NCBI RefSeq assembly: GCF_003383095.1
Contig: NZ_PSYW01000001.1
Span: forward strand, 620,001-684,000
Direction of reading: 5' to 3'
Length of the DNA: 64,000 nucleotides
DNA from: Haloferax sp. Atlit-12N
Lineage (GTDB): Archaea > Halobacteriota > Halobacteria > Halobacteriales > Haloferacaceae
Position 1 is the stretch's first letter. The number at the start of each line of letters is the position of its first letter. The notes beneath the pieces are model-generated. The model was not told where the DNA came from and ran no database searches. It saw only the letters and a list, made by a program, of their open reading frames with translations. A program made the translations under genes and the position numbers. Shown here piece by piece: positions 24,241-27,725 of this stretch.

Positions 24241-24467
24241 GTTAGTATACTGTCATTGTGTGTCGATAAAAATCACTCGGCGGCGAAGTGACTCGGCGTG
24301 TCGTGTTTTTGAGTTGGAACTATACCGGGTAACCACCCATCTTCGAACTTCGTCATATATTTTCTTCACTGCATTTTTGCTGGCGAATCTGTCTTTTCAG
24401 AGCAGTAGACGAAAACGCTACATCAAAGAAGAAGCACAGAAACTAAACGCTCACACTTCACCTCGGT

Positions 24468-25115
24468 CTAATTTTCTCCGTCTTCTTTCTGGGTGAACTT
24501 ACGTAGGATTTTTCTGGCTTGTCTCTTACCAGGTGGAGTCAATTTGACTGTTGCAGAAGGTCCTCTCCCTGCTCTATTGAAGTATCGATCTCCTTCACCC
24601 TGGTACATATTTGCCATCCCCGAAGAGGGGATGCTAGATAATTCAAGCGCATCCTTGAGCTTTGATGACTTTACACGGTTTACCTCGTAGCACTCATGCC
24701 ACACATACAGCAGTATTAGTGAAGCGACCCGTTGTCGGTCTGTTTGTCTTTTTCCAATCTTCCCTAACTCTTCAGAATACAATACTGGCATCTCGTCGTC
24801 ATCAGGGTTTACATGGAGAAATCTCTCAAGTTGACTCTCAGGCACATGAAGTTGTGATGCAATTGAGTGTAATGGACCCGGTTCTGTATTCTCTTCTTCA
24901 GCTCTATTTTGAGCAAAAGATTCCAAAGAAGTGCTTTCAGTTTTATCTGATTCAATTTCTGGAGTCACTTGACCCCCATCGAATTCATTAAACTGGTCTT
25001 GATTATTCTCGATAAATCTCATGAGATCAAGGACCTCTTCTTGGTAATTCTCGTCGTTTAGAGCGTGTATCTCTACAGTCATCGGCCCATACTCGAATGT
25101 CACAGTAGTTTCCAT
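24468..25115 (-). CDS. Island protein with probable C-terminal winged helix, unknown
   Basis: 215 residues with AT-rich, non-halophile codon use. The N-terminus (FEYGPMTVEIHALND then a helix) looks like a small beta-beta-alpha unit. A polar linker of about 60 residues follows. Residues 135-205 read like a helical region and winged helix, with basic and Tyr-rich turns (NMYQGEGDRYFNRAGRG) and a basic tail. A DNA-binding role is inferred only from this pattern. The upstream in-frame stop lies nine codons before the ATG, so the start is well bounded. I do not recognise the family. Confidence 0.6.
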   Translation of the reverse strand: METTVTFEYGPMTVEIHALNDENYQEEVLDLMRFIENNQDQFNEFDGGQVTPEIESDKTESTSLESFAQNRAEEENTEPGPLHSIASQLHVPESQLERFLHVNPDDDEMPVLYSEELGKIGKRQTDRQRVASLILLYVWHECYEVNRVKSSKLKDALELSSIPSSGMANMYQGEGDRYFNRAGRGPSATVKLTPPGKRQARKILRKFTQKEDGEN

Positions 25116-25362
25116 TTCTACTTGAGACAGTCGGATTCTTCAGGCATAATTCTTTCCCAGGGATGAATAATATCTCCGCAGTTTTGGATTCAGGGATTTC
25201 CCAACCATGAACTATTCTCTTGTGTACCATGATTTGGGTGCCTAGTGGCGCAAAATCGTCCAATATTGGTACCGGGTTTGATTCGGTCAGAACTCCCAGG
25301 GATTGAGATATAGGTTTGAACTCTTTATTCTCGGAGTAACGCTTATGTGTCCCCACACGCAT
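25027..25362 (-). CDS. Doubtful small gene overlapping the start of the 24468-25115 gene
   Basis: 111 residues. The first 80 residues (from MRVGTHKRYSE to IPGKELCLKNP) have a plausible protein composition, while the last 28 overlap the next gene in another frame and read like shadow (Arg/Ser-rich). It may be a real short gene with an 89-bp overlap, or the 5' part of one longer gene broken by a frameshift near 25027-25115. No domain recognised. Confidence 0.3.
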   Translation of the reverse strand: MRVGTHKRYSENKEFKPISQSLGVLTESNPVPILDDFAPLGTQIMVHKRIVHGWEIPESKTAEILFIPGKELCLKNPTVSSRNGNYCDIRVWADDCRDTRSKRRELPRRGP

Positions 25363-25416
25363 GTTACATCAAACGTCGTAGTTCACGACCTAATCAATGT
25401 GAGAAACACAGTAAGT

Positions 25417-25454
25417 TCGGTCCGCGGAACCTGCCAGGGAACCGCGCGGACCGA
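25417..25454. repeat. 10-bp perfect inverted repeat in the island
   Basis: TCGGTCCGCG (25417-25426) and CGCGGACCGA (25445-25454) are exact inverse complements around an 18-nt spacer that itself carries direct repeats of GGAACC. A second shorter repeat, GGGAC-TTGGG-GTCCC, lies at 25490-25504. They occupy the 205-bp gap between divergent island genes, so operator or recombination-site roles are both possible. Confidence 0.45.
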
Positions 25455-25567
25455 TTGTGCAGCCCCTTCAACACCCCTATCTGGCCGAAGGGACTTGGGG
25501 TCCCTGCGACACGGTAGGCTATCAGGGCTTATCTATATCTAGATTAGCCTAAGCAAATAGTTTACCC

Positions 25568-26170
25568 ATGTCGCTATCGGTCGGATGCGGCACAATGAGC
25601 TCGACTACAGACTCAAACACAACCACCGACCATACGCCGTGGGACGAACTCACCCCGGCACGACAGCGAGTAGCAAAGACCGTTGCCTACGTCAACGGAC
25701 CTCAAACGTTCGAACGTCCAAACCTTCGCGACGACGTGAAGGAATCGACAGCCGTCGAGGATGTCATCGACGACAAAGACCGTGTACTCACCTCGCTGAA
25801 GTACACTCGGTTGCTGAACGACCTCGTCGACGACGGCTATCTCACCCTGGAATTTCAAGGGGGGACAAACCCCATCATCTTGGATGTCGAGTACGACTCG
25901 ACCCGAGACACCCGAAACTCAGCACCTTGGGGCGACGCAAGTGCTCTTCACACGCTAGTTAGTCAGGTGTGTGACCGCGAGGGTATCACACGAGACCTAC
26001 TCAGCGAGGTAGAGAATCCGTACGATGTCAACCAAGTCAGGCAGAAGGTGAACGAAGCTGTAGGCCGGACCGTGCTGCTCCCGTACGCCGACCCAAGTGA
26101 ATATCGCTTCACCAAAGAGACCTACTCACTCGTCAGTGAGAAGGTTCAGGCGGAGAAAGAAGAGCAGTAG
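25568..26170 (+). CDS. Island protein, unknown
   Basis: 200 residues from the first ATG; a second ATG at 25595 would give 191 residues. A Ser/Thr-rich acidic tail leads into a helical segment (ARQRVAKTVAYVNG ... RLLNDLVDDGYLTLEF) that could be a winged-helix-like unit, then GITRDLLSEVENPYDVNQVRQKVNEAV. The TATA-like TTATCTATATCTA about 25529-25541 fits the first ATG with a short leader. Its composition is intermediate between island and core. Function unknown. Confidence 0.6.
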   Translation: MSLSVGCGTMSSTTDSNTTTDHTPWDELTPARQRVAKTVAYVNGPQTFERPNLRDDVKESTAVEDVIDDKDRVLTSLKYTRLLNDLVDDGYLTLEFQGGTNPIILDVEYDSTRDTRNSAPWGDASALHTLVSQVCDREGITRDLLSEVENPYDVNQVRQKVNEAVGRTVLLPYADPSEYRFTKETYSLVSEKVQAEKEEQ

Positions 26171-26297
26171 GCTGCAGTTCTAGCCTCGGTTTACCTTTTT
26201 CTAGATTGTCAGTTGGCACTTACCACATCAAATCGGTGTGTCTATGCCTGTGTGGGCAACCCACTACAGACCTGAACTCGTAGGGTGTAGAACGGAC

Positions 26298-26326
26298 CGG
26301 TGACTGGACCACACCGGCACCAGTCA
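26298..26326. repeat. Nested inverted repeats 3' of tRNA-Gln
   Basis: Two overlapping inverted repeats share this stretch: CCGGTG/CACCGG (26298-26303 and 26312-26317) and TGACTGG/CCAGTCA (26301-26307 and 26320-26326). They lie just past the 3' end of the tRNA-Gln gene, where element attachment sites are normally found. They could instead shape the 3' trailer of the precursor tRNA. Confidence 0.35.
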
Positions 26327-26347
26327 GGATTAGAACGCTTGAAGTAG

Positions 26348-26451
26348 TAGTCCCGGGCGGATTCGAACCGCCGTCAGCGGCTGTCTTCTCGGCACGCAAT
26401 GAACCGTACCAATCCAAAGGCCGCTATGATTGGCCACTACACCACGGGACT
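26348..26451 (-). tRNA. tRNA-Gln (anticodon TTG) with a 31-nt intron
   Basis: The 5' AGTCCCG pairs with the 3' CGGGACT to form a full 7-bp acceptor stem, discriminator A, no encoded CCA. The T-arm is GGCGG-TTCGAAT-CCGCC. The anticodon stem GCGGC/GCCGC encloses the loop CTTTGG...A with anticodon TTG (Gln, CAA codons). A 31-nt intron (26383-26413) interrupts the loop after position 37, the canonical archaeal site for splicing by the tRNA endonuclease at a bulge-helix-bulge. Total length is 104 nt, 73 after splicing. Confidence 0.93.
26383..26413 (-). other. tRNA-Gln intron
   Basis: 31 nt between tRNA positions 37 and 38, starting ATTGG and ending AAGAC on the RNA strand. It restores a perfect 5-bp anticodon stem when removed. 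No C/D-box guide features are visible, unlike the much longer haloarchaeal tRNA-Trp intron. Confidence 0.88.
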
Positions 26452-26486
26452 GACATCTGAAATTGGGTGATGCCGGCACAATAACC

Positions 26487-27215
26487 TTACTTTTTGTCTC
26501 CACTTTCTACGAGTCGGTGACAAGAGCGACACAGAGAAACAACGTTGGACAGCGTGTGGGCGTTACTCGGGTCATCGAAGTCGCGAACCCGATTTAGATG
26601 ATGCACGTCTGGGTTCTGTCCCAGTTCTTCGCTATCCGCTCCGCATCGCTGGCAAGTGTAATTGTCTCGTTCTAGTGCCTTTCGACGAACTGGCCACCAA
26701 GACTCTCCATAAAAGAGGGTTCCGCCTTCCCATTGATGGTGGTTCGAGCCAACAATGTTGTTAGAGAGCCACTTCCCATAGCAGTCTAAGTCGCAGAATG
26801 ATCCGTATTCGTTCCCGTTAATCGACGAAGGGAGTCGTTCGAGTTGAGCCTCACAAAAGCTACACGCGGTTCTTATTAACTCAATTCGCTCTGCGGGGTT
26901 TTCAGGGAGTAGCCCTTCTGCCTCCTTGACACACTCCGAACAGTAAACACCCTGCTTATTTGATGGGTAGTAGGAAAACGTAGCATCGCAAACGCTGCAC
27001 GTCTCTGTTTCTTTACCCCCTCGCCAGTTACCGTTCTGATTTCCTTGCTCTGAATAACACTCTTCGCAGTAAACACGCTGAGACTTTGGGTCGTAAAACT
27101 CCTGATGGCAGCGTTTACAGACTCGGTTAGGCAGCGGTGTGTTGTGGACCTTTGTGTGGTGCTGCCGCATTCCCTGTTCTGTTGCTAGCTGTTTGCCACA
27201 GGACGGGCACTCCAT
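26487..27215 (-). CDS. HNH endonuclease with multiple zinc sites
   Basis: 242 residues. A C2H2-type finger opens the protein (Cys3, Cys6, His19/20, His24). Further Cys pairs follow at 33/36, 50/53, 73/76 and 92/95, then 118/121 and 141/145. The C-terminal 60 residues are an HNH nuclease: Cys188/Cys191, HH at 205-206, Asn224 in TLSNVVSLC, and Cys229/Cys232-His233. It resembles free-standing homing or phage-type HNH nucleases that bind DNA through serial zinc fingers. It lies 35 bp from the 5' end of tRNA-Gln, and composition marks it as acquired. Confidence 0.85.
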   Translation of the reverse strand: MECPSCGKQLATEQGMRQHHTKVHNTPLPNRVCKRCHQEFYDPKSQRVYCEECYSEQGNQNGNWRGGKETETCSVCDATFSYYPSNKQGVYCSECVKEAEGLLPENPAERIELIRTACSFCEAQLERLPSSINGNEYGSFCDLDCYGKWLSNNIVGSNHHQWEGGTLFYGESWWPVRRKALERDNYTCQRCGADSEELGQNPDVHHLNRVRDFDDPSNAHTLSNVVSLCRSCHRLVESGDKK

Positions 27216-27272
27216 AAAATAACATCACTACCGTGCTAGATAGTGATTCGGCAAGTAGAGTGTAAGTGAAAC

Positions 27273-27725
27273 TCAGTCCGCGACTTCCGTCTCCGTCTCG
27301 GGTTCCGCGCCGCACACCTCGAGATACTCGCAGGCGTCCGTCTCGGGGTCGAAACAGTCGGGACACTCGGAGTTACGGTCGATGATGGTGTCGAGGCGCT
27401 CCGCGATCATCCCGTCGATGACGGGTTCGAGTTCGCGGGCCTCCGCGCGGAACTCCTCGACGTCGAGGACGTTCGAGAGGAAGCGCTCGATGATGCAGTA
27501 GGTCTGGAGCGCGTCGCGAGCGCGGACGATTCCCTCGTCGGTGAGGGTGACGCCCTTGTACTTCTCGTGTTCGGCGAGGCCGCGGGATTCGAGTTTGCCA
27601 ATCATCTCGTTCGCGCTCGCCGGGCTCACCTCCATCATGTCCGCGAGCGCGCCGGTGGCCGCCGGGCCGTTCTCCATCTCCTGCAGCAGGTAAATCGCCT
27701 TGACGTATTGGTCTGCCGTGTTCAT
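27273..27725 (-). CDS. DtxR/SirR-type metal-dependent transcription regulator
   Basis: 150 residues. The N-terminal 65 residues are a DtxR winged helix (MNTADQYVKAIYLLQE ... VSPASANEMIGKLESRGLAEH). The dimerisation and metal-binding helices follow (CIIERFLSNVLDVEEFRAEARELE). Unlike short bacterial DtxR members it ends in an additional four-Cys cluster, Cys121, 124, 132 and 138, also seen in the MntR/SirR branch with an HPxCG-like region. It probably represses metal genes when loaded with Fe(II) or Mn(II). It sits 4 bp after the ferritin-like gene, so the two are likely cotranscribed. Confidence 0.87.
   Translation of the reverse strand: MNTADQYVKAIYLLQEMENGPAATGALADMMEVSPASANEMIGKLESRGLAEHEKYKGVTLTDEGIVRARDALQTYCIIERFLSNVLDVEEFRAEARELEPVIDGMIAERLDTIIDRNSECPDCFDPETDACEYLEVCGAEPETETEVAD

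Follow-up and report, generated by a model that had tools for sequence, protein, structure and literature searches.

Two independent acquisitions flank an intact tRNA-Gln gene in Haloferax, one carrying a probable homing endonuclease gene

How does AT-rich DNA come to lie on both sides of a tRNA gene that it leaves intact? The question is raised by a 64,000-nucleotide stretch of the Haloferax sp. Atlit-12N genome (contig NZ_PSYW01000001.1, positions 620,001 to 684,000; hereafter the window), in which an intron-bearing tRNA-Gln(UUG) gene has such DNA at either end. A composition scan gave a G+C content of 0.45-0.54 across about 24.0-27.2 kb versus 0.61-0.70 on both flanks. This agrees with an earlier note, made from the letters of the window, which had described an AT-rich island breaking sharply from the core, with an HNH nuclease as its only identifiable product and an unbroken, intron-containing tRNA gene inside it; the HNH gene is indeed the sole Pfam match within the island. 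The note had taken the island for an integrated element at a tRNA gene. Mobile DNA is present there, but not as a single island: the AT-rich region is two independent acquisitions flanking the intact tRNA gene. We consider it probable that two unrelated mobile features share this gene, the remnant of an integrase-type element on the left and a free-standing homing endonuclease gene on the right.

Two blocks around one tRNA gene

We compared the locus in 15 genomes of the genus (the window and 14 congeners), anchored via its dtxR-like neighbour. Congeners that keep the context and lack both the HNH gene and the other two island genes, here called A and B, have only short spacers on either side of tRNA-Gln. 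In the window, the 3'-side spacer has given way to a 2.0-kb block that contains A and B, the 5'-side spacer to a 0.8-kb block that contains the HNH gene, and a host-like tRNA-Gln stands in between. The alignment with congeners lacking the genes, which the earlier note had proposed as a check, yielded the ends of both blocks (Table 1); on the right, homology ends at the 5' end of tRNA-Gln and restarts at the end of the dtxR-like gene. One congener (G004) carries the left block, with 94% identity to the window in A and 99% in B, and an ordinary right side, and we therefore regard the two blocks as independent. Set against the case that the note had named as contrary to its proposal, the same genes in all relatives, A and B occur in two of the 15 genomes (the window and G004), and the HNH gene lies at tRNA-Gln in one (G000, the genome of the window) and in none of the 14 congeners.

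A single integrated island that brought in the HNH gene together with A and B would explain the AT-richness of both blocks and their place on either side of one tRNA. We hold this to be highly improbable: the arrangement in G004 contradicts it unless the right block was precisely lost there, and the relatives of A/B and those of the HNH gene are found in different contexts. An apparent tRNA island can thus be unrelated insertions at opposite ends of one tRNA gene.

The tRNA gene itself is overlooked by a default ARAGORN run; with introns allowed, the program reports tRNA-Gln(ttg) with a 31-nt intron in the anticodon loop. The intronless tRNA-Gln of congener G011 aligns to it as two exons, and an intron of 31 nt has been reported for Haloferax tRNA-Gln(TTG) (PMC7714728).

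Table 1. Features of the tRNA-Gln locus, in window coordinates; block ends are approximate and come from the comparison with congeners
Feature	Position	Strand	Remarks
Left block, integrative-element remnant on the tRNA 3' side	24305..26345		Among congeners only in G004
Gene A	24468..25115	-	215 aa; no described family
Palindrome between A and B	25417..25454		Conserved in G078 and G143
Gene B	25595..26170	+	191 aa from the start shared with relatives (frame opens at 25568, 200 aa)
tRNA-Gln(UUG)	26348..26451	-	Intact; 31-nt intron at about 26383-26413; Rfam tRNA 50.2 bits; ARAGORN
Right block	26452..27276		Stands for the ordinary tRNA/dtxR intergenic region of congeners; homology stops at 26451 and resumes at 27277
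Promoter-like motif AAGTAANNNTATTGTG	26477..26492	-	Upstream of tRNA-Gln, overlapping the HNH gene end
Zinc-finger/HNH nuclease gene	26487..27215	-	242 aa; probable free-standing homing endonuclease; Pfam HNH 3e-06

The left block and its integrase-bearing relatives

Genes A and B also co-occur in genomes of two other genera (G078 and G143), where a tyrosine integrase of 340-342 aa directly adjoins A, a tRNA-Phe gene lies some 4-5 kb past B, and copies of the tRNA-Phe end stand just beyond the integrase (32 bp in G078, 21-28 bp in G143); the elements, of ~7-8 kb, are integrated at tRNA-Phe. The order and strands in the window, A(-), B(+), tRNA(-), are those of G143 and are mirrored in G078. 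The G+C-rich palindrome is preserved in both, with 92-95% identity over 38 bp and a match in inverted orientation, within a spacer that is otherwise not conserved; an origin, an operator and an RNA structure are candidates for its role. Since the relatives of A and B sit by an integrase and tRNA-Phe end copies, the two genes belong to small tRNA-3'-end elements, and by sequence comparison the left block is kin to integrative elements. Its position and orientation suggest that the window element itself entered at tRNA-Gln.

Among described systems, the relatives resemble archaeal tyrosine-integrase elements at tRNA 3' ends, such as the SNJ2 type (PMC8371274), in their integrase (PF00589 with a SAM-like N-terminal domain) and in their tRNA end copies. 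Unlike those elements, the window copy has no integrase, middle part or outer attachment site, and A and B match no described family: searches of Pfam, NCBIfam, PHROGs and PADLOC gave no match to either. Gene A has a predicted structure with a mean pLDDT (predicted local distance difference test) of 69. Neither gene was found in phages; among plasmids, two records matched B and one matched A.

The earlier note had seen neither an integrase nor a second attachment site, and targeted searches agree with it. Searching with the integrases of the two relatives (tblastn) revealed nothing significant left of A in the window or in G004, and no second tRNA-Gln 3' end turned up in the window's island, where the best ungapped match to it spans 7-8 bases. 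We therefore consider the left block a gutted remnant. It is probably a decayed element of the tyrosine-integrase kind that targets tRNA 3' ends, in which A, B and the palindrome survive and which, having lost its integrase, middle part and outer attachment site, can no longer move by itself. Of the two options that the note had offered, a remnant or movement by another mechanism such as the HNH protein, the first thus holds for the left block and the second may hold for the HNH gene; HNH as the mover of A and B is ruled out, because their relatives are accompanied by an integrase.

Copies of the tRNA-Gln 3' end, the repeat that the note had suggested looking for, are found not in the window but ~75-110 bp off the intact gene in four congeners: L006 (G001), L008 (G010), L009 (G002) and L013 (G011). 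These mark separate integrations next to this gene, which makes tRNA-Gln a repeated integration target. Similarly, tRNA-His 3'-end copies lie downstream of tRNA-His in the HNH-free loci L321 (G014) and L324 (G289), so that tRNA-His is also an integration target.

An HNH family linked to two tRNA genes

The HNH protein consists of several Cys/His zinc-binding modules followed by a C-terminal HNH domain (Pfam PF01844, above cut-off). Residues D203, H205, H206, N224 and H233 and the zinc cysteines are invariant across 33 relatives. The predicted model (mean pLDDT 79.5, predicted template-modelling score 0.40) has confident modules in loose relative placement, and searches by profile and by fold lead to zinc-finger arrays and HNH nucleases. 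Foldseek returned nothing below E 0.001 for this model; EcoKMcrA and zinc-finger arrays top its list and are suggestive only. A defence-system reading was rejected, since the matches, to ZorE and DpdF, were weak and confined to the HNH domain.

Relatives were sought with the protein or its alignment, and position was not used as a criterion. They spread across Halobacteriales, and every match in the phylum sample fell within this order. A tRNA gene lies within 300 bp in 72 of the 74 named loci and nearby in all 40 further loci, with the HNH gene at the 5' end of tRNA-Gln or the 3' end of tRNA-His. After pooling and de-duplication, 136 of 142 genes were within 400 bp of the tRNA-Gln(UUG) 5' end or the tRNA-His 3' end: 61 at the former, all on the strand of the tRNA, and 75 at the latter (60 on the tRNA strand, 15 on the opposite one). 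The remaining six comprise one gene 466 bp from tRNA-His (L177, a partial alignment), three with no detected tRNA, one with an ARAGORN 'tRNA-Gln' 5' call that fails the sequence check, and one with an ARAGORN 'tRNA-Ser'. The intron caused some genes that are tRNA-Gln by sequence to be called Glu, Lys, Pro or Stop. Among weaker relatives, 13 of 15 have no tRNA within 400 bp. Members of the tRNA-linked family share 36-67% identity and form two clades, Gln and His, separated by one change on the tree, each with a fixed tRNA and side. A literature search, with most subscription journals outside its coverage, found no report of such a family.

Could an integrase-type element at the tRNA end have brought the gene in as cargo, with no homing involved and the window copy a second remnant? 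Use of the 5' half of a tRNA is possible for archaeal pTN3-like integrases (PMC8371274), a tRNA-end copy lies past the HNH gene at a few tRNA-His loci (in L165 and L177 it has 21-22 bp), and end copies also flank tRNA-His in some HNH-free genomes. Yet such a copy exceeds shuffled sequences in only 4 of 72 HNH loci, which excludes far-side tRNA-end duplication as a rule for the family; the HNH gene, 40-200 bp from the tRNA, is the only gene that the loci share; and the two clades are strict in tRNA and side. We regard a cargo origin as distinctly unlikely.

The distribution of the gene, compared between species only, is patchy, and its tree conflicts with that of the hosts. The window protein is sister to one from Halospeciosus, a member of another family, and approximately unbiased (AU) tests reject two groupings: the tRNA-His enzymes of Haloferacaceae as one clade (p 0.0007), and the window together with Haloplanus as another (p 0.035). 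In Haloarcula and its relatives, loci with and without the HNH gene diverge immediately past the tRNA-His end. Many copies are interrupted by stops or have split frames, and some gene-free tRNA-His loci retain pieces of the HNH reading frame that are recognisable by eye. Nine intact pairs have ratios of nonsynonymous to synonymous substitution (dN/dS) of 0.06-0.19, indicative of purifying selection. A patchy distribution, sites without the gene, copies in decay, purifying selection and a conflicting tree all agree with a homing endonuclease that stands free, and we read the HNH gene as probably such.

The same selection would also suit an old resident gene of host function, inherited vertically beside tRNA-Gln or tRNA-His and lost often, so that adjacency is frozen synteny; the tRNA-His flanking genes, often the same, and the confinement to Halobacteriales in the phylum sample point in this direction too. 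A gene of that kind is nonetheless hard to reconcile with its presence at tRNA-Gln in just one of 15 genus genomes, with a sister protein in another family and the rejection of family-wise descent by the AU tests, with HNH copies at tRNA-Gln in two different genomic contexts, and with a window gene of 50.8% G+C in a genome of 66%. We think this explanation unlikely.

Two genomes carry both tRNA-Gln and tRNA-His HNH genes: Halovivax sp. KZCA124 (L120 and L159) and Natronoglomus mannanivorans (L119 and L162). A motif like TTTCACTTTCACCCCGG, perhaps a promoter, recurs upstream of many His-type genes, between tRNA-His and the HNH gene (L132, L133, L139, L141, L142, L146, L150, L151, L153, L158 and L176).

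The tRNA-Gln intron and the proposed homing cycle

Within the genus, the tRNA-Gln intron is present in 8 of 15 genomes and absent from 7 (L188-L194 versus L013, L221, L222 and L229-L232); the intronless genes also bear a compensated acceptor-stem change (AGTCCCATGG...CCTGGGACT). The window gene belongs to a subclade of tRNA-Gln HNH genes, Q1; genomes were placed in it by the length and score of their match. An intron of 30-33 nt is present in each tRNA-Gln that was read next to a Q1-type gene. Across the same 392 genomes, the intronless pattern occurs in none of the 54 with a Q1-type gene versus 177 of the 338 others; the exact probabilities multiplied within ten genera give 4e-9, a value that assumes within-genus exchangeability and comes from an after-the-fact test. 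The window intron is native, being identical to that of the HNH-free G014, and did not move together with the nuclease gene. The nuclease thus reached a host that already had the intron, which favours compatibility or immunity over joint movement, though it is no proof. For Q1 the association is established, and its probable cause is that the intron renders the host compatible or immune.

Under the homing reading, the zinc modules would bind the tRNA gene end, its flank or both, and the HNH domain at the C terminus would cleave alleles without the HNH gene. Repair from a donor carrying tRNA, HNH gene and flank would then copy the gene in, with the tRNA and the neighbouring gene supplying the homology and the tRNA remaining whole. 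Separation of the tRNA from its native flank would confer immunity, and in Q1 the intron may do so as well.

Several points weigh against this scheme. HNH cutting and gene conversion are predictions from sequence, and homing does not account for immunity at the tRNA-His locus. The tRNA-His flanking genes are often conserved, and part of the pattern is therefore vertical descent. Far-side copies of the tRNA end are rare, as noted above. A second subclade, Q2, lies beside an intronless tRNA-Gln in 14 of 23 cases, which rules out that all tRNA-Gln HNH genes need the intron. For the left feature, the attachment-site copy and the integrase trace are both missing from the window.

The familiar settings of homing nucleases are introns, inteins and phages. 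Like SegB of T-even phages, which lies between tRNA-Arg and tRNA-Ile and targets the tRNA region, the HNH gene stands alone between host genes by its presumed target, and like phage MobE its product is free-standing and of HNH type; its link to a nearby intron recalls collaborative, or trans, homing (PMC2988022). Unlike the T-even enzymes, the family resides in archaeal chromosomes, is fixed to two single tRNA genes, joins a zinc-finger array to the HNH domain and is known from sequence only, and the intron here is a protein-spliced archaeal tRNA intron of 30-34 nt. Outside cells, the nearest relatives found come from haloarchaeal tailed viruses (HVTV-1, HCTV-5, BLv36 and others), whose HNH endonucleases have 26-38% identity over most of the protein; homing endonuclease genes are reported to be abundant in HVTV-1 and HCTV-5 (PMC3950731). 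The viral endonucleases differ in lying in viral genomes rather than at chromosomal tRNA genes, and their identity is below that within the family. If the homing reading is right, a whole archaeal order has a homing endonuclease lineage of its own at its chromosomal tRNA genes, fixed to tRNA-Gln and tRNA-His.

A further idea, which we offer tentatively and rate as rather doubtful, is that the family polices two essential tRNA genes: Q1 enzymes would cut intronless tRNA-Gln(UUG), the 30-34 nt intron would serve as an immunity mark, and the nuclease would select for intron retention, one reason why short archaeal tRNA introns persist. The Q1-intron link makes this persistence, an old question, directly testable in Haloferax.

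The motif AAGTAANNNTATTGTG, a putative promoter by its sequence, is common to the window and to HNH-bearing loci of Halospeciosus and Natrialbaceae and is missing from intron-bearing HNH-free congeners; this sharing would fit transfer of the flank along with the HNH gene. Its value as an element-specific mark is weakened by its presence upstream of tRNA-Gln in intronless HNH-free congeners as well.

A leader of ~60-68 nt, absent from the window, lies directly upstream of tRNA-Gln in L188 (G014) and L193 (G001), and also at L111, L114-L116, L118, L121, L123, L126, L221, L229 and L230. Against Rfam it matched only the tRNA itself. The leader starts with the tRNA-Gln 5' end (AGTCCCGTGGTGG) and folds into an acceptor-like stem and a hairpin. 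Covariation is strong, with 95% of cells paired, seven pairs changed on both sides, and a score of 0.376 versus 0.221 for shuffled and <0.08 for slid versions.

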